Part shown: positions 3,965 through 63,324 of the stretch, piece after piece
Numbering within the stretch: the first letter of the stretch is position 1
Layout: the number at the start of each line of letters is the position of its first letter
DNA from: a virus
IMG/VR virus record: IMGVR_UViG_3300020021_000007
Location: 1 to 63,324 of that record
Length of the DNA stretch: 63,324 nt
Reading direction: 5' to 3' (one strand)
Program-made: the position numbers and the translations under genes
The notes under the pieces: generated by a model
Databases searched by the model: none
Told to the model about the DNA's origin: nothing
What the model saw: only the letters and a program-made list of their open reading frames with translations

Positions 3965-4192
3965 ATGACAATCCAAACTGCCCAACTTGTCATAGATGCG
4001 CTGGTACGCGATTGTCAATCATTCACATGCGGTCAGGCTGGTGGGTCAGCTGAGTCTCATCGTTTATTTGCAATCGGCCTTTTGAATAAAGCTCGTAGAG
4101 AATTATTTCGAGCACAACAACTTGAACCAAAACCAGATGATACGCCAGAAGAACGTATATCTGATGATGGTTTGCCAAGAGGGTTCGAATGA
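3965..4192 (+). CDS. Hypothetical 75-residue protein
   Basis: Follows the cysteine-module gene by two bases. Helical, with an acidic C-terminal third (PKPDDTPEERISDDGLP). No signal peptide, metal site or known family seen. Its stop overlaps the next start (ATGA). Confidence 0.5.
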   Translation: MTIQTAQLVIDALVRDCQSFTCGQAGGSAESHRLFAIGLLNKARRELFRAQQLEPKPDDTPEERISDDGLPRGFE

Positions 4193-4377
4193 ACTTCTAC
4201 CAGGTAACCACCGGCAAGCGTCAGTACGCCTTCCACGCGCGGAGCATCCAAGTTGCCTCCTCGTTTGTGCAGCACTGGCGCCCCGGTGTCGTCGTGACTC
4301 GCATCAACTACGCGCAGTTCTTGATGATGCTGAAGTCACGCTTGCAACGCTTGGCGATACAGGGGAAGCTCACATAA
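4189..4377 (+). CDS. Hypothetical 62-residue protein, paralogue of the gene at 4444
   Basis: Shares with the 4444-4686 product an N-terminal pattern MNxYxVxxG, then IQxAS.FV.HW.PGV.V.R. The two genes therefore come from a local duplication. A compact alpha/beta domain of about 45 residues is likely. Function unknown. It ends just before the first of the conserved promoter-like elements. Confidence 0.6.
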   Translation: MNFYQVTTGKRQYAFHARSIQVASSFVQHWRPGVVVTRINYAQFLMMLKSRLQRLAIQGKLT

Positions 4378-4391
4378 TGCCTTGATGTTAG

Positions 4392-4443
4392 AACTGTGAA
4401 CTACGTCACGTCCGTACCTGGTTGCATGATCTAAGCTCTATTC
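4392..4443 (+). promoter_or_regulatory. Promoter-like element P1 (AACTGTGAACTAC box)
   Basis: AACTGTGAACTAC at 4392-4404, then the -10-like hexamer TAAGCT starting exactly 40 bases after the box start, then six bases ending in TC, then the ATG of the next gene. It is one of five such elements in the window. The predicted +1 coincides with the A of the start codon, so the mRNA would be leaderless. Confidence 0.6.
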
Positions 4444-4686
4444 ATGAACATCTACACTGTCGTTTCTGGACTGGGCTGGTACTTGATGCCGGCGCCGAAC
4501 ATTCAAGCTGCGTCGCAGTTCGTGCGGCACTGGCCCGGTGTCAAGGTGCGCCGAGTTACCGACGAGCATGTGGTCACGCAGCTCCATGCGAAATCGCTTG
4601 CACGATCCATTCAATCAGACGTACAACGTAAGCTCTACACACGTGAGGAGCTGCAATGTCTGCTAAGTGGGATCAATACTGGTTAG
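4444..4686 (+). CDS. Hypothetical 80-residue protein, paralogue of the gene at 4189
   Basis: N-terminal half matches the 4189-4377 product (MNIYTVVSG, IQAASQFVRHWPGVKVRR), followed by a helical extension. The gene has no Shine-Dalgarno site; instead a -10-like hexamer ends six bases before the ATG, which suggests leaderless expression from element P1. Its end overlaps the dCMP deaminase gene by 31 bases, so the two may be cotranslated. Function unknown. Confidence 0.6.
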   Translation: MNIYTVVSGLGWYLMPAPNIQAASQFVRHWPGVKVRRVTDEHVVTQLHAKSLARSIQSDVQRKLYTREELQCLLSGINTG

Positions 4687-10972: not shown

Positions 10973-11022
10973 AACTGTGAATTAGGTCTAGATTTACGGT
11001 GCAGGTGTGCTATCCTTGCATC
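10973..11022 (+). promoter_or_regulatory. Promoter-like element P2
   Basis: AACTGTGAATTAG at 10973-10985, TATCCT at 11011-11016, then TGCATC and the ATG at 11023. The box-to-hexamer distance is 38. Upstream, TTCACA at 10952 forms an inverted repeat with TGTGAA inside the box. The +1 is predicted at the start codon, so the transcript would be leaderless. Confidence 0.65.
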
Positions 11023-11688
11023 ATGAAAACGAAACACACCCACCAAGGAACTTGCCAGGCCTGCGGCGCTGTGCAAGCGGTTGACAACACCACCAAGCTG
11101 ATCGCGAAGCACGGTTACCAGGTAGCAGGCTTCGGGTTCTTCAACGGGGTTTGCCAGGGCAGCGACAACCCGCCCGCGGAGCTCGAGGTGTTCCTCACCT
11201 ACCGCATCATCACCAACCTGCTCGCCTGGGCAACGGAAAAGGATCGCATCGCGGAGCTGTACGCCAACGGTGTCTTGATGGTCCACATGCACAGTTCGTA
11301 TTCGGGCAAACGCACGCCCAAAGGCAACCGCATATACCACGACGTCATGATGTTCGGTTGCACCGAGGACCAGATCATCCACCAGGGTACGCTTGAAATT
11401 GACAGCAACACGTCCGCCGCGAACATGGCGCGCAGCCACATTGACTCGCTGAAGCGTCTGGTGCTTACGCGCTTGGGTCAACCGCTCTACCCGGTGTCGC
11501 ACAAGACGGTGCGACAGTTCGCGGTGGGCGATGTGGTCAAGCTGTACAGCAAGGACTTCGTGCTGGTTGCCCCGCGCTATGGTATGTCGACCACCAGCAC
11601 CCCGAAGTTCTGGAAAGGCTATTACAAAGACGATGCGGACAAGAAGATGTTCTTCCCGACAGTTCGAACACTGAGGAGCCAGAACTAA
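11023..11688 (+). CDS. Hypothetical 221-residue protein with N-terminal CxxC
   Basis: The start is set by element P2, which leaves no room for a Shine-Dalgarno site. A CQAC motif near residue 11 suggests a zinc knuckle, followed by an alpha/beta domain with several histidines (VLMVHMHSSYSG) and a C-terminal basic beta segment. It stands alone between two promoter/structured regions, so it is probably its own transcription unit. No family recognised. Confidence 0.6.
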   Translation: MKTKHTHQGTCQACGAVQAVDNTTKLIAKHGYQVAGFGFFNGVCQGSDNPPAELEVFLTYRIITNLLAWATEKDRIAELYANGVLMVHMHSSYSGKRTPKGNRIYHDVMMFGCTEDQIIHQGTLEIDSNTSAANMARSHIDSLKRLVLTRLGQPLYPVSHKTVRQFAVGDVVKLYSKDFVLVAPRYGMSTTSTPKFWKGYYKDDADKKMFFPTVRTLRSQN

Positions 11689-13172: not shown

Positions 13173-13223
13173 AATTGTGAACTAGATCTAGCCCGGGACT
13201 GCAAACCGGGCTATTCTTGCATC
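13173..13223 (+). promoter_or_regulatory. Promoter-like element P3
   Basis: AATTGTGAACTAG at 13173-13185, TATTCT at 13212-13217, then TGCATC and A at 13224. The hexamer and the next seven bases match element P2 at all but one position, yet no ATG follows; the helicase starts 26 bases later behind CGGAG. The shared ATCA therefore belongs to the promoter, not to the start codon. Confidence 0.65.
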
Positions 13224-13249
13224 ACAATAGTTCATCGGAGTTTTCGCAA

Positions 13250-14716
13250 ATGGGTACAGAAACACGAATTTGGTCCGCGCTTCAGCTCGCACTGTTCGGC
13301 GACGCTGCAATCGGCACCGGTAACCGCATCGTTATCGCGGTCGCTGGTTCGGGCAAAACCAGCTCGGGCGAACAGATGGTGAAGCGCGTGCGCGGTTCGC
13401 ACGTCTACCTCGCGTTCAACAAACCCATCGCCACCGAGTTGTCGGCGCGCGGGTTGAACGGTCGGACCTTCCACAGCATTTGCTACAGTGTGGTCACCAA
13501 GGCCCGTAACGTCAAGACGGTCGACGCGGACAAGCTGCGCCGGTTGTGCGATGCGAAGCTCACCGGTGACCACGGTCAACTGTACGGTTCGTTCATCCAG
13601 CGCCTTGTCGGTCTCGCGCGCAACGCGGGTATCGGTTGCCTGGTGGACAACGTCGATTCTGCTTGGTATGACCTGATCGACCATCACGACCTCCAGCTCG
13701 AGTCCGAGCTCGCGGACGTCACCAAAGCGGTCGAGCTCGCACAGCAGCTTCTTGTCTGGTCCAACGAATCAACGATGGTTGACTTCGATGACCTGCTTTA
13801 CTTTGCGGTCAAAGACGGCCTGGTGATGCCCAAGTTCGACAACGTGTTCGTTGACGAAGCGCAAGACACCAATGCGATCCAGCGCGCGATCATCAAGAAG
13901 ATGATGAAGCCCACCTCGCGCCTGTTTGCCATCGGTGACCCGGCGCAAGCAATCTACGGGTTCCGGGGCGCGGACAGCAACAGCATGAACATGATCAAAG
14001 AGGAGTTCAACTGCACCGAAATGCCCCTCACGGTCAGCTACCGGTGCGCCACCTCAATCGTCGCGTATGCGCAGCAATGGGTTGACCACATCCAAGCGGC
14101 ACCGGACGCTCCTGAAGGCGAAGTGGTGGACCTCAACTACGATTGGAACACCGGCAACTTCAAGCCGAACGACTTGGTTGTCTGCCGCACCACCGCCCCG
14201 ATCATTACCCTCGCCTACCGCATGCTGAAGGCGCGGGTACCGGTGCGGGTGATGGGTCGTGAGATTGGGCAGGGCCTCAAGTCGCTGATCAAGAAGATGA
14301 ACGCGCGCACCATGGAGCAGCTTGAAAGCAAGTTGGACGTGTGGTCAGCGCGAGAGTGCGAGAAGGCGCGCGTCAAGAACCAGGACAGCAAAGTTGAAGC
14401 GATTCAGGACAAGTGCGACGCGATCAAGTGCCTCATTGATGGTCTTGACGAAGGTGACCGCAGTATCTACGCGCTGAACAACGTGATCGACAAGCTGTTC
14501 TCTGACGCAGTGAATTGCACGGTGCTGGCAACCATACACAAGTCCAAAGGCCTAGAAGCTGACCGGGTGTTCTGGTTGAACAGCTCACAGTGTCCCAGCA
14601 AGTGGGCGAAACAAGCGTGGCAGGTCCAACAAGAGAATAATCTCTGCTACGTTGCTACCACGCGCGCCAAAACGTCCTTATTCCTGATCGAAGAAAAGAA
14701 GGAGAAATCACGATGA
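13250..14716 (+). CDS. UvrD/Rep-like superfamily 1 DNA helicase
   Basis: 488 residues. Walker A at residues 31-38 (VAGSGKTS), Walker B VFVDEAQDT, motif III GDPAQAIYGFRGA, motif V TIHKSKGLEADRVF and motif VI YVATTRAKT, giving a complete SF1A helicase core without the large accessory domains of host UvrD. A 3'-5' translocase for replication restart or recombination is expected. The chosen ATG is nine bases after CGGAG; transcription should come from element P3. Confidence 0.88.
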   Translation: MGTETRIWSALQLALFGDAAIGTGNRIVIAVAGSGKTSSGEQMVKRVRGSHVYLAFNKPIATELSARGLNGRTFHSICYSVVTKARNVKTVDADKLRRLCDAKLTGDHGQLYGSFIQRLVGLARNAGIGCLVDNVDSAWYDLIDHHDLQLESELADVTKAVELAQQLLVWSNESTMVDFDDLLYFAVKDGLVMPKFDNVFVDEAQDTNAIQRAIIKKMMKPTSRLFAIGDPAQAIYGFRGADSNSMNMIKEEFNCTEMPLTVSYRCATSIVAYAQQWVDHIQAAPDAPEGEVVDLNYDWNTGNFKPNDLVVCRTTAPIITLAYRMLKARVPVRVMGREIGQGLKSLIKKMNARTMEQLESKLDVWSARECEKARVKNQDSKVEAIQDKCDAIKCLIDGLDEGDRSIYALNNVIDKLFSDAVNCTVLATIHKSKGLEADRVFWLNSSQCPSKWAKQAWQVQQENNLCYVATTRAKTSLFLIEEKKEKSR

Positions 14717-14897: not shown

Positions 14898-14949
14898 AAC
14901 TGTGAACTAGCGCACGAAAGGATTCGTGCATCTGACCGATACTTAAATC
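14898..14949 (+). promoter_or_regulatory. Promoter-like element P4
   Basis: AACTGTGAACTAG at 14898-14910, GATACT at 14938-14943, then TAAATC and the ATG at 14950. Box-to-hexamer distance 40. As in P1 and P2, exactly six bases ending in TC separate hexamer and start codon, predicting a leaderless mRNA. Confidence 0.65.
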
Positions 14950-15084
14950 ATGAACAAGCACACATACAACGCGCACCAAGCGCTGACCGCCACCGCCCGG
15001 ATGCGGTTGACCCCTGTACAGCAGGAAGCACTTTTGAAAGCAGCGCTTGAGCGTGCGGAGATCCTGCGCAAACTAGGCGCTTAA
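14950..15084 (+). CDS. Hypothetical 44-residue protein
   Basis: Short helical, basic product starting exactly at the predicted +1 of element P4, with no Shine-Dalgarno site. The precise promoter-to-ATG geometry shared with two other genes is the main evidence that it is real. It precedes the lysis cassette. Function unknown. Confidence 0.5.
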   Translation: MNKHTYNAHQALTATARMRLTPVQQEALLKAALERAEILRKLGA

Positions 15085-49715: not shown

Positions 49716-50432
49716 CTATGGCAAATTATTTTGCTTGCGCCATGCTCCGTACTGAACACCAGCCGTGCTCAGCGACCATCCGTTCTTAAGTGCTAGTTCT
49801 TTGATGCGCGTTCGCGGCGGCACTATACCTGTCATCTTGTAGTCCAAGTCAAGCGCTTCGTGTATTGCAGCGCAAACACCAGACTTAGGTCTAGCCCCCG
49901 CATTAGCGCGTGCTGGTGCGGTGCGCGGTGCCGCTGGTGCGCTGGGTTCACGCGGTGCGTTCGCACGCGCTGCGGCTGCCAGCTTGCGGTCTGCGACCGC
50001 TTTGCGCGCGGTCGGTAGCAGTGCCGCCGGGTCCGCTGTCGTCTTCAATGCGTACAGGTCGCCCGCTTTGCCGGGGCGGTACGAACCCTTGACGTAGACG
50101 AACCCCTGAGGCGCACCGGTAGCTTCCATGTGCGCAGCTTGAATCTCGACTTCGGTCGGTACGCAGTCGGTGCAAGGTAGCGTTTCAGCTATCTGAAGCA
50201 ACCATTGCGCCAGCGTTTCATGATCAGCTGTGTGCGACTCCTTACCGGTGGTGTTGCGGAACAGGGCTTGCAATTCCTCCACGGTAAAGTGATCCATGGC
50301 ACCGGGAGTAGGCACTGGGAAGCATGACGCGCTTTCGTAGCTGCGCGTGATATAATCCAGGTCGCGCACGACCCGGAAGTCTGCGTGCTTGTGGAGGAAC
50401 ACCCTGCGGTCGTGGTCAACGCTAACGTACAT
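49716..50432 (-). CDS. Paralogue B: large N-terminal domain plus QY-RWR domain
   Basis: 238 residues from the ATG at 50432, which overlaps the end of the small membrane gene. The first 120 residues form a distinct globular domain (MYVSVDHDRRVFLHKHADF, DHFTVEELQALFRNTTG), then an Ala/Arg/Pro-rich basic linker (residues 150-190), then the shared module (GVCAAIHEALD...GVQYGAWRKQNNL). The linker-plus-module layout copies paralogues A and C. Function unknown, DNA binding inferred. Confidence 0.62.
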   Translation of the reverse strand: MYVSVDHDRRVFLHKHADFRVVRDLDYITRSYESASCFPVPTPGAMDHFTVEELQALFRNTTGKESHTADHETLAQWLLQIAETLPCTDCVPTEVEIQAAHMEATGAPQGFVYVKGSYRPGKAGDLYALKTTADPAALLPTARKAVADRKLAAAARANAPREPSAPAAPRTAPARANAGARPKSGVCAAIHEALDLDYKMTGIVPPRTRIKELALKNGWSLSTAGVQYGAWRKQNNLP

Positions 50433-50571
50433 CCGCTTGCTCCTCGAGCTGGTGGGTGTGCTTGGCCGCCGCTTGCTCGAGCTGCGCCTGGACACTGATG
50501 CGCATGTGGTGCATCGCGACGCAAGCCGCGAGGAACACAACCATCCATATTATCACACCCTTGAATTTCAT
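50422..50571 (-). CDS. Small membrane protein, 49 residues
   Basis: Starts behind CGGAGAG. One membrane helix (residues 5-20, GVIIWMVVFLAACVAM) and a charged helical C-terminus with several His and Gln. Its end overlaps the start of paralogue B by 11 bases. Function unknown. Confidence 0.6.
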   Translation of the reverse strand: MKFKGVIIWMVVFLAACVAMHHMRISVQAQLEQAAAKHTHQLEEQADVR

Positions 50572-50638: not shown

Positions 50639-51163
50639 CTAGATCGTGCCGGCGTCGTTCGCACCGCCCAAGGAACGGGGCATCAAACCGTTGAACTGCT
50701 TCCACCGCTGGTACTGGGTCATCGCGGTGTTCTTCTGCCAACCCGCGTCCTTGGCGAGCTCGCGGAGGTGCTCGAAGGTCGGCGTTTCGCCCTTCAGCGC
50801 GGTGCGCTTCGCGTCCAATGCGTCCCAAATTTGACCGCAGATGGTACCCGAGCTCGGCTTGGTCACACCGTTGGCAGCGGCGCGCACCTTGCGCTCAGTC
50901 GCCTTCTTAGGCGCCTTGCGGGTCTTCAACTCCGACGCTGCACCCTTTTCGATGGCGGTCGGGGCACCGATGCCGGTGTCGATCGCTTTGTCCAACAGCG
51001 TGCGGGTGTCTGTGATGGGGGGACTACCGGCGGCAGCTTTCGCTTCCAGCGCGGCGCGCATCCCAGCATTGTCAAGCTTGCCGTACGTGATTCCGGCGAG
51101 TTTGCAAGCGGCACGCAATTCGACCTTGCCCATTGCCGCGAAATCTTCTGTGTACTTGCTCAA
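50639..51163 (-). CDS. Paralogue C: SAP-like domain plus QY-RWR domain
   Basis: 174 residues behind AGGAG, 45 bases downstream of the predicted +1 of promoter element P5. Residues 10-42 (GKVELRAACKLAGITYGKLD) resemble a SAP DNA-binding motif. A Lys/Arg/Ala linker follows, then the shared C-terminal module (GQIWDALDAKR...MTQYQRWKQFNGL). A two-domain DNA-binding protein is the best reading. It heads the paralogue block. Confidence 0.65.
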   Translation of the reverse strand: MSKYTEDFAAMGKVELRAACKLAGITYGKLDNAGMRAALEAKAAAGSPPITDTRTLLDKAIDTGIGAPTAIEKGAASELKTRKAPKKATERKVRAAANGVTKPSSGTICGQIWDALDAKRTALKGETPTFEHLRELAKDAGWQKNTAMTQYQRWKQFNGLMPRSLGGANDAGTI

Positions 51164-51207: not shown

Positions 51208-51259
51208 TGAGGCTAATCTACACCACACAAGGACGAAAGACAAGACCTAGTTCACAGTT
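51208..51259 (-). promoter_or_regulatory. Promoter-like element P5
   Basis: On the minus strand: AACTGTGAACTAG (51259-51247), TAGATT 39 bases from the box start (51220-51215), then AGCCTC and A at 51208. It begins one base after the helicase stop codon and drives paralogue C and perhaps the modification genes. Same layout as P1-P4 on the other strand. Confidence 0.62.
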
Positions 51260-52987: not shown

Positions 52988-53958
52988 CAGATCGTCTTCT
53001 TTACCGTGTATTCCCCGCAGCCAACGAGCTGCGTCTGTTTATCGATTGTAACCTCTCTTAGCCTGCAATACCACTCCGCGTTCCCATTAGGTCGCGGTAA
53101 GCTGTACGCGCATGTTCGACAGTTCTTGTCAGGTGCTTCTTTCTTGTGGCACACACCGCGATGATCGCAGAAGCGACACTTCCAAAAGCCCGGTGATTCG
53201 TTCAGCTTCTTGGGTGGCGTTTCGCTGAACACCAGTTTGTCAGCGCGCTCAGTAAACTGGTCAGCGATTGCAGTGTCCAGTGGTATCAACTCTGCATAAA
53301 CAGCATCGTTGTTCTTGTTGGCGCACATGTACAAGCACACCGCCAACCCCATCTTGCGCATGTAAATATTTGATTGAACGTAATGCTCGAACTTCGCAGC
53401 ACGCACACCTTCACCGACAAACTGCACCGCTGGCTTGCCCGGATCGAGCAGGTGCGCAACGTACTCGTTCCAGTTTTCACCAGCGAGTTTGTTGAACGAT
53501 TTTTCGTTCGCAGTCTTGAACTCGAGCAACGCGGCTTGTCCGGGCGACAGGTCTGGAAGATGTAGTGCTACACCGTCGCCGCTGCCACCGAAATGCCCGT
53601 GCGAGTCGCTGACACGGAACTGCTTACCGTGTTCGTCTTGTTGGATTACATGCACACCGATCGAAACCAAGGCCGCTATCATGCGGCCTTCCTCGAGGTG
53701 CCCTCGGTTGAACAATCGCAGCATGCGACCTTCAAACCGTGGCTTGACAGCCCAGCGGAAGTTATACCAAGCGTGCCGCGCGCATTCGGTGCCTATGATT
53801 GACGCACCTAAGTGTGACCGGTGCCCGTCGTTCTCTTCGCGGTAAGCGTCGGTGATGTGTGGTAATACCCGCTGCAATGTCGCGCGGTATGCGTTACCCT
53901 GATCCTTTTCAATGCTTGCCTCGATCGCCGTCAGCGTCTTAGCGGCAATATAGATCAA
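52987..53958 (-). CDS. Cas4/RecB-like PD-(D/E)XK exonuclease
   Basis: 323 residues. ECARHAWYNFRW near the N-terminus, GSGDGVALHL (Asp) and LLEFKTANEKSF (E-x-K plus the helix Lys) form a RecB/Cas4 nuclease core, and a late cluster CRFC, GVC, NCRTC and a further Cys suit an iron-sulfur or zinc site. Such exonucleases accompany DUF669 proteins and Sak4 ATPases in siphovirus recombination modules. Overlaps the next gene by four bases. Confidence 0.78.
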   Translation of the reverse strand: MIYIAAKTLTAIEASIEKDQGNAYRATLQRVLPHITDAYREENDGHRSHLGASIIGTECARHAWYNFRWAVKPRFEGRMLRLFNRGHLEEGRMIAALVSIGVHVIQQDEHGKQFRVSDSHGHFGGSGDGVALHLPDLSPGQAALLEFKTANEKSFNKLAGENWNEYVAHLLDPGKPAVQFVGEGVRAAKFEHYVQSNIYMRKMGLAVCLYMCANKNNDAVYAELIPLDTAIADQFTERADKLVFSETPPKKLNESPGFWKCRFCDHRGVCHKKEAPDKNCRTCAYSLPRPNGNAEWYCRLREVTIDKQTQLVGCGEYTVKKTI

Positions 53959-54146
53959 GGTAAATGCCTGCGATCCCTACACGGTGCGCACGCGCGACCG
54001 ACAAGGCGCTGTGAAGGCTCACCACAATATCCACAGATACCGGGTTCACCCTTGGGTATCTTCGCTGCGTTTATCGACACTTGCCGAACTGCGCATTCGA
54101 CAAGTAATGATTCTTTCTGTTCAGACAGATCGCAATCGTCAGCCAT
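53955..54146 (-). CDS. DksA/TraR-type zinc finger protein
   Basis: 63 residues behind GGGGA. The C-terminal half IPKGEPGICGYCGEPSQRL...CAPCRDRR (in outline) is the C4 zinc finger of TraR/DksA, with the CGYCG and CAPC pairs. Proteins of this kind bind the secondary channel of host RNA polymerase and alter promoter use. The coupling to the Cas4-like gene is by ATGA overlap. Confidence 0.78.
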   Translation of the reverse strand: MADDCDLSEQKESLLVECAVRQVSINAAKIPKGEPGICGYCGEPSQRLVGRACAPCRDRRHLP

Positions 54147-62097: not shown

Positions 62098-62130
62098 TAC
62101 TAGACTCCAATGTTAATAATAAAAAGCAAT

Positions 62131-62160
62131 ACTATAGCGTTTTTACACCTAACGCCATTA
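62131..62160 (-). promoter_or_regulatory. Leftward early promoter
   Basis: On the minus strand TATAGT (62136-62131) is a near-consensus -10, preceded by weak -35 sequences (TTAATG or AATGGC). It is followed by a short leader and the TTGGAG site of the 62097 gene. Confidence 0.5.
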
Positions 62161-62374
62161 ACGCATTAGCGTGGGGTGCGTGCGGCTATACGCGCCGCCC
62201 GATACGTCTAGTAGATAAGTAGATAGATGATATAGGCACTATAGGTTAATGTGTTAATAATGTTATTATATATCTATAGATACTGACCGCATGCGGTACC
62301 ACATTTAGAACGAAGAAGCAATAACATATCTGGTGAATTACATTAACCGAGCGTATGCATCATAGTGTGGTTAT

Positions 62375-62403
62375 TTAATTTGAATAGGGTTGCCAATTAT
62401 AAT
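62375..62403 (+). promoter_or_regulatory. Rightward early promoter
   Basis: TATAAT (62398-62403) matches the -10 consensus exactly; TTAATT 17 bases upstream is a weak -35. Transcription would start near 62410 and read into the small early genes from 62448. Confidence 0.55.
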
Positions 62404-62447
62404 AAACTGGTATAGGGTTGTGTTGATGCATCTTAAAGGCGTAAGTC

Positions 62448-62654
62448 ATGAACCATGGATTGACAATTGCGATGCGGAGCTGCCTCTTGAAAGCAGCACG
62501 CACACGACTTGCACAGCTCCACGAAGAATACGAGGGGTTGTTGGTGCAATTACTAATGACCGCGCAACGCGATGTGTTGTTCAGCGAGATAGCATGCGTC
62601 ACCGCCGCTATCGCTTGGCTTTGGGCACAACCTGCAACGGACGATGGGAGGTAA
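62448..62654 (+). CDS. Hypothetical 68-residue protein, first rightward early gene
   Basis: Behind TTAAAGG, immediately downstream of the rightward promoter. Helical (RSCLLKAARTRLAQLHEEYEG) with a hydrophobic end containing AAIAWLWAQP. No family recognised. Confidence 0.6.
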   Translation: MNHGLTIAMRSCLLKAARTRLAQLHEEYEGLLVQLLMTAQRDVLFSEIACVTAAIAWLWAQPATDDGR

Positions 62655-62655
62655 C

Positions 62656-62778
62656 ATGCGAAAAGATAGAAGTTTCGAACGTGCGTTTTTCAAGGCTATT
62701 GGAATAATGATTGCTGTCATCGCAATCTTTGGTTCCATAATCTATGCGTTGATGTGCTGGGTGGACACCGAGCCATGA
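62656..62778 (+). CDS. Small membrane protein, complete copy
   Basis: 40 residues behind GGGAGG. The cut gene at 1-122 is its identical other copy. Charged N-terminus, one membrane helix (AIGIMIAVIAIFGSIIYALM) and an acidic end. Coupled to the next gene by ATGA. Confidence 0.65.
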   Translation: MRKDRSFERAFFKAIGIMIAVIAIFGSIIYALMCWVDTEP

Positions 62779-62855
62779 ATATCGAACGTCTAGGCAATTT
62801 TGTGAACTGGTTGGCGGTTCCAGCGTTCGTAGCTCTGCTATGGTACGGGTCATGA
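62775..62855 (+). CDS. Hypothetical 26-residue membrane peptide
   Basis: Homologue of the 119-202 gene with the same first residues (MN, RLGNFVNW) but a different hydrophobic tail. Coupled by ATGA at both ends; in this copy it is joined directly to the 62852 gene. Confidence 0.45.
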   Translation: MNIERLGNFVNWLAVPAFVALLWYGS

Positions 62856-63037
62856 ACGCACAGCTTAAATTCGAACCGCTTAAGACTCAGCCCATGCCGA
62901 CGCGTGAGCGCTTGAACCGCATCGCGGAAGGTTTGCAGGGTTGGATCGACGGTAAGGTCGCTGATCACAATGCGCGTCGCGCTGCGGATCGGCGGGTCAA
63001 CTACTCCGTGCAAGGGTGGAACATATGCCAAACATGA
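62852..63037 (+). CDS. Hypothetical 61-residue protein, second copy
   Basis: Near-identical to the 338-523 product except for the last four or five residues. The ATG at 62852 overlapping the previous stop is chosen over a GTG upstream because it matches the other copy. Confidence 0.7.
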   Translation: MNAQLKFEPLKTQPMPTRERLNRIAEGLQGWIDGKVADHNARRAADRRVNYSVQGWNICQT

Positions 63038-63231
63038 TCACGCTCGAAGTTGAAATCGTCATTAAGGCAAAGTTGCCTTCCCTCACGCAGCGCGCTATAC
63101 GCAAGCTTGAGCGCGGCGGTGTTGTGGTCACCAGCGTTGACACCAGCGCGAACCGTTGCACCGTACACGGCACGCTTAAAGTGCGCGCAACACCGCTGTA
63201 TCCCGATGAACACGCTTCGTGGCGGAGGTAG
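63025..63231 (+). CDS. Hypothetical 68-residue protein, second copy
   Basis: Homologue of the 516-698 gene. Same core, with conservative changes (for example MPNMITLEVEIV), but a C-terminus eight residues longer and unrelated in sequence. Starts inside the preceding gene. Confidence 0.65.
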   Translation: MPNMITLEVEIVIKAKLPSLTQRAIRKLERGGVVVTSVDTSANRCTVHGTLKVRATPLYPDEHASWRR

Positions 63232-63232
63232 C

Positions 63233-63324
63233 ATGAAATCCATTCTGTTCGTATTGCTGATGCGCATCAACGGCGACACCAGTGCGGTAGCTGTGTACGA
63301 GTCCATAGAGCAGTGCCGTGACGC
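63233..63324 (+). CDS. Hypothetical protein, second copy, cut by window edge
   Basis: Begins behind GGAGG and encodes the first 30 codons of the homologue of the 701-880 gene; identical to it from codon 4 onward. The gene runs off the right end of the window. Confidence 0.6.
   Translation, partial: MKSILFVLLMRINGDTSAVAVYESIEQCRD

Follow-up and report, generated by a model that had tools for sequence, protein, structure and literature searches.

Why should five genes scattered over a viral record of 63,324 bases, the whole of which we analyzed and refer to as the window, be preceded by the same 13-base box, AACTGTGAACTAG? The initial annotation had seen in these copies a family of promoters probably served by an activator or by an altered host polymerase. 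We asked whether the copies and their spacing stand out from chance, what the same gaps hold in related phages and which protein is likely to bind.

The box family and its core promoters

All five positions named in the initial annotation were recovered when the record was scanned for the box at up to one mismatch (4392+, 10973+, 13173+, 14898+ and 51259-). The copies at 14898+ and 51259- are perfect, and those at 4392+, 10973+ and 13173+ have one mismatch each. By our own arithmetic about 0.08 copies are expected at this threshold on both strands, and all five copies are intergenic and oriented toward the next gene. A matrix built from the five sites gives the members 27.6-31.7 bits and the next-best window position 14.8 bits. 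The extent first given to the box was too short, as the conserved block comprises an A at -1, bases 1-13, TC at 15-16 and a G at 19. It reads AAnTGTGA-nCTAGn-TC, and its inner part, GAnCTAGnTC, is near-palindromic. Since the flanks are otherwise unrelated, the copies are not parts of a longer duplicated segment. The sites are listed below with their ranks under the CRP matrix discussed further on.

4392..4413, plus strand: CRP-like site AACTGTGAACTACGTCACGTCC; reported box at 4392-4404, degenerate -35 ACGTCC at 4408-4413; CRP-matrix rank 3
10973..10994, plus strand: CRP-like site AACTGTGAATTAGGTCTAGATT; -35 TAGATT at 10989-10994; CRP-matrix rank 4
13173..13194, plus strand: CRP-like site AATTGTGAACTAGATCTAGCCC; -35 TAGCCC at 13189-13194; CRP-matrix rank 6
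14898..14919, plus strand: CRP-like site AACTGTGAACTAGCGCACGAAA; -35 ACGAAA at 14914-14919; CRP-matrix rank 1
51238..51259, minus strand: CRP-like site AACTGTGAACTAGGTCTTGTCT; -35 TTGTCT at 51243-51238; CRP-matrix rank 11

Each box is followed by a -10-like hexamer in a fixed register, as had been claimed. The hexamer starts at box offset 39-41 in all five members, a shared register reached in 1 of 20,000 trials against random places and in 18 of 20,000 with ±15 jitter of the regions themselves. In 5/5 members the hexamer is followed by six bases, the last two of them TC, and then by an A; at three members this A is the first base of the ATG, again in agreement with the initial annotation.

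4432..4437, plus strand: -10-like TAAGCT; predicted start A at 4444, the A of the ATG
11011..11016, plus strand: -10 TATCCT (extended, TGC); predicted start A at 11023, the A of the ATG
13212..13217, plus strand: -10 TATTCT; predicted start A at 13224; syntenic with a sigma70 promoter of phage NP1
14938..14943, plus strand: -10-like GATACT; predicted start A at 14950, the A of the ATG
51215..51220, minus strand: -10 TAGATT; predicted start A at 51208

The further claim that these promoters have no -35 proved wrong. When the -10 of each member is kept in place, the highest-scoring -35 occupies box offset 17-22 in every case, an agreement that shuffles equal in 52 of 20,000 trials; a degenerate -35 thus adjoins the box in a fixed register. 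The -35 and -10 hexamers are separated by 16, 17, 17, 18 and 18 bp, and the variation of the -10 offset between 39, 40 and 41 is absorbed by the spacer. All members therefore have the layout of sigma70 promoters, with a -10 and a -35 lying 16-18 bp apart and a start about 7 bases past the -10. The core promoter at 51259 is TTGTCT-17-TAGATT. Members 4392 and 14898 have weak hexamers; in the former, TAAGCT makes a poor -10 and the core promoter is weak as a whole (score 0.9). The genes that follow are these.

4444..4686, plus strand: 80-aa gene, predicted leaderless; without Shine-Dalgarno; paralogue of 4189-4377
11023..11688, plus strand: 221-aa gene, predicted leaderless; homologue in L287
13250..14716, plus strand: UvrD-like helicase; ATG at 13250, GGAG 9 bases upstream, leader of ~26 nt
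14950..15084, plus strand: 44-aa gene, predicted leaderless; without Shine-Dalgarno, no family match
50639..51163, minus strand: gene of the subfamily-wide family phrog_21588; start at 51163, Shine-Dalgarno AGGAGA, leader of ~45 nt

Members 13173 and 51259 precede genes with leaders, which are not leaderless. At the other three, the start codon at 4444 is supported by the paralogue at 4189-4377 and that at 11023 by the homologue in L287, which has the same first residue, yet an ordinary leader and Shine-Dalgarno. Shine-Dalgarno energies at 4444, 11023 and 14950 are -0.5, -3.3 and 0.3, compared with -5 to -9.5 for most genes. With predicted starts on the A of the ATG and a weak or missing Shine-Dalgarno, leaderless mRNAs at these three genes, which the initial annotation had foreseen, are well predicted but unproven.

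The gene at 50639-51163 has a paralogue at 49716-50483 on the same strand, both belonging to a subfamily-wide family (phrog_21588/17772/7864). A helical C-terminus, perhaps of the HTH type, is predicted for them, and the predicted fold of the 50639-51163 product found no significant structural match.

Counterparts in related phages

Portal, major head protein, tape measure, DNA polymerase, primase and gene order place the virus beside Nipunavirus NP1 and other Queuovirinae. TerL is 80% identical to that of NP1 and 79% to that of the nearest IMG/VR relative, and the helicases share about 50-62% identity with those of relatives. In most relatives examined, sigma70-like promoters occur in the gap before UvrD and in the gap behind the second helicase. 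A simple promoter scorer finds strong promoters in NP1, G003, G010, MiCath, L288 and others, and is weak in GC-rich relatives, where the scan window or the model may be at fault. The NP1 promoters in the two gaps are TTGCAC-17-TATACT and TTGCAT-16-TATAGT. In the UvrD gap, the NP1 promoter corresponds to TAGCCC-N17-TATTCT of the window, and CTGCAA is common to both spacers. The -10 of the orthologous NP1 promoters is also trailed by TC-A, and the -35 at 51259 aligns with that of NP1, L288 and L289. Since two of the box gaps hold ordinary sigma70 promoters in relatives, we consider the box loci to be promoters. The core promoters of the five members score 0.9, 3.7, 6.8, 7.2 and 9.8, as opposed to 9.8-10.8 for the NP1 orthologues. 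On this sequence comparison, the window appears to hold the ancestral promoter, to which the box was added upstream and whose core was weakened.

The search of related phages that the initial annotation had suggested found the box in none of those searched, which do not include a close relative. It is absent from the searched relatives found through TerL (80 loci), UvrD, the 11023 protein and the 50639 protein, including those with ~50-62% helicase identity, and at up to one mismatch from G003 and from all five TerL loci in bacterial genomes. In NP1, the first 50 kb show no excess of a shorter box core, and a de novo repeat search in relatives returned no comparable promoter box. Scans of other viral contigs with the box alone or with box and ATG gave single occurrences in unrelated phages, which we attribute to chance. 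No enrichment of the box with its core was seen in 59 Pseudomonadaceae genomes, where the three matches are at chance level; the exact box is not a host regulon motif in Pseudomonadaceae. The proposed link between the box and the DksA/TraR-like protein is not supported either, given that NP1 and G003 have a DksA-like gene and no such site was found in G003 or, with the shorter core, in most of NP1. The DksA-like zinc-finger protein of the window (53955-54146, minus strand, phrog_54) is the orthologue of NP1 gp46.

Candidate binders of the box

Our preferred reading takes the box for the left arm of a CRP-type inverted repeat, TGTGA-N6-TCACA. The choice of CRP was post hoc, as the box was seen first and several other motifs were weighed by eye, among which those of ECF sigma, sigma54, LexA, TrpR, PhoB, ArgR, the LuxR-box and MetR fitted more poorly. 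We built a matrix from a set of 16 textbook CRP sites of E. coli, independent of the window. This matrix ranks the five sites 1, 3, 4, 6 and 11 of 63,303 positions. It outdoes 6,000 permuted decoy matrices, by a narrow margin for one decoy type. The fairest test concerns the right arm, because bases 15-22 lie outside the reported box: the arm is enriched at the exact CRP spacing (offset 15, the best of 60 offsets; P-value = 2.6e-4, Fisher test). The left arm is perfect in 5/5 sites, while the right arms read only TCACG, TCTAG, TCTAG, GCACG and TCTTG, and are poor (TCTAG, TCTTG, GCACG) at 4/5 sites. Across the sites the N6 core (ACTAG) varies less than recognition by CRP would call for, and this suggests that the binder has a specificity of its own.

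The position of the sites agrees with a known mode of activation. Class II CRP sites are centred at -41.5 and overlap the -35 (PMC5957442, PMC10328515), and the five centres lie at -41.5, -39.5, -40.5, -41.5 and -40.5 from the predicted starts, overlapping the -35. A CRP-like site with a -10 at the class II offset occurs nine times in the window and 0-3 times in shuffles; two of these nine lie in coding sequence and are copies of one another. In Pseudomonas and Xanthomonas, the CRP orthologues recognise sites resembling TGTGA-N6-TCACA (PMC5449483), and both genera are known hosts of related phages. A search of the window with HTH_Crp_2 matched no CRP-family gene in the phage, so that the binder would most likely be a host protein of the CRP/Vfr/Clp type. 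As a separate observation, a CRP-like TTTTGTGAACTGG with a -10 at the class II offset is present at 142+ and 62798+, possibly by chance. These two were not counted as family members as both are internal to coding sequence, in two diverged copies of one gene for a small membrane peptide.

An activator very probably acts in the class II position upstream of the core promoter. That it is of the CRP type we hold with slightly better than even confidence. The full reading, in which the five dispersed loci are sigma70 promoters that depend on an activator, most likely a CRP/Vfr/Clp-type protein of the host, has in our judgment an even chance of being right. According to this reading the box would be the upstream arm of an inverted repeat centred ~40-42 bp before the transcription start, and a CRP-family dimer on this repeat would cover part of the weak -35 and touch RNA polymerase in the manner of class II CRP promoters, where activation depends on CRP and cAMP. 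The genes concerned, for the UvrD helicase, for a putative DNA-binding protein found across the subfamily and for three proteins that are small or uncharacterised, would respond to the state of the host, and transcription at 4444, 11023 and 14950 would start on the A of the ATG and yield leaderless mRNAs. Of the initial interpretation, the upstream activator site and the three leaderless starts are thus supported, and the absent -35 and the DksA/TraR link are not.

Other explanations fit parts of these data. A phage-encoded activator unrelated to CRP could bind a 16-bp box by the weak -35 and switch on a delayed gene set, the likeness to CRP being coincidental. This is possible though rather unlikely. 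In its favour, CRP would demand neither the ACTAG core nor the near-identity of the five copies, the motif appears confined to this phage and several window genes have no family match. Against it, the second arm of the CRP site is exactly where the spacing predicts, and the proteins scanned gave no match to a known family of activators, sigma factors or appropriators. The product of 50639-51163 would be a candidate through its helical, possibly HTH-like C-terminus (fold matches not significant) and through the box borne by its own gene, yet its family is also found in relatives where the box was not. It is quite improbable that the box is instead an operator at which a phage or host repressor blocks the -35 of a repressed regulon. 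The box adjoins and partly overlaps the -35 and its inner part is near-palindromic, as an operator could be; however, a box added to an ancestral promoter with a weaker core fits an activator better than a repressor, the mostly weak cores suit a need for activation and the proteins scanned include no repressor or integrase.

Near-identical short copies are typical of the promoters of single-subunit phage RNA polymerases, and the five copies could be read in this way, with incidental -10-like hexamers. We regard this as highly improbable, since the -10 and -35 registers are non-random and the orthologous gaps hold sigma70 promoters. The proteins compared with PHROGs or Pfam include no polymerase of this kind; the window also has no RNA_pol (PF00940) match, a weak argument as the control genomes are silent too. 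A chance repeat without function would agree with the absence of the box from the relatives searched, but is scarcely credible when five copies are found for ~0.08 expected, all intergenic, co-oriented with the next gene and in a fixed promoter register.

Returning to a host CRP-type activator, the sites resemble class II CRP promoters of the galP1 type in their TGTGA half-site, in lying over a weak -35 and in a centre at about -41.5 from the predicted start. They differ in being phage-borne and predicted from sequence, in the consistently poor downstream arm, in the unusually uniform N6 core and in a centre 0-2 bp nearer the start. In phage lambda, the activator site of PRM adjoins a weak -35 and the cI mRNA begins on the A of the ATG, an arrangement similar to the one predicted here. 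Unlike lambda, whose activator is its own CI repressor, the window has no such gene that we could find, and its promoters are five and dispersed. The sigma70 promoters of NP1 occupy the same gaps, with the same -10 and start region and an aligned -35; they differ in lacking the box, in a -35 of the TTG type and in leaders that carry a Shine-Dalgarno. Borrowing of a host regulator through sites in phage promoters, as proposed here, resembles the case of GIL01, a temperate phage repressed by host LexA (PMC4551915), with the difference that we propose activation of dispersed genes rather than repression.

Rather tentatively, a presumably lytic siphophage may have brought ancestral sigma70 promoters, belonging to several unlinked genes, under a CRP-type sensor of its host in the class II position, thereby reading the cAMP or carbon state of the host and firing leaderless mRNAs from three of them. 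If so, a phage of the Queuovirinae group would place replication and accessory genes under a host metabolic sensor, at promoters whose counterparts in relatives seem to need no activator. Phage gene expression would then be tied directly, and testably, to the carbon state of the host, and the leaderless genes, if real, would be a rare instance in which one regulator governs several leaderless mRNAs.

Other features of the record and its relatives

The most over-represented octamer of the window is TGACCACA, with 27 copies compared to 2.3 expected under an order-3 Markov model (for example at 14083+, 30919+, 4569- and 6221-). Genome-wide and on both strands, it has 34-53 copies in NP1, MiCath, G009, G010 and G023, where 1.3-2.0 are expected. 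It may be a dispersed subfamily-wide signal, such as a nicking, primase, recombination or modification site.

The record ends (1-790 and 62656-63324) are diverged copies of one small-gene block, exact only in the first ~100 bases. Because of this divergence they probably stem from a tandem duplication, cut open where the record begins and ends, and not from a terminal repeat. The AT-rich intergenic region at 62100-62450 has strong sigma70-like promoters in both directions and is likely an early control region.

Upstream of 16124, the partly non-coding segment 16045-16181 shares 77% DNA identity with contig L281 (5018-5154), above that of the neighbouring genes, and could be a packaging site or an RNA. 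L281 (DYKZ01000001.1), a contig of 111.8 kb assigned to an Anaerolinea MAG, carries Queuovirinae TerL and head genes, with 79% TerL identity, and is probably a mis-binned phage.
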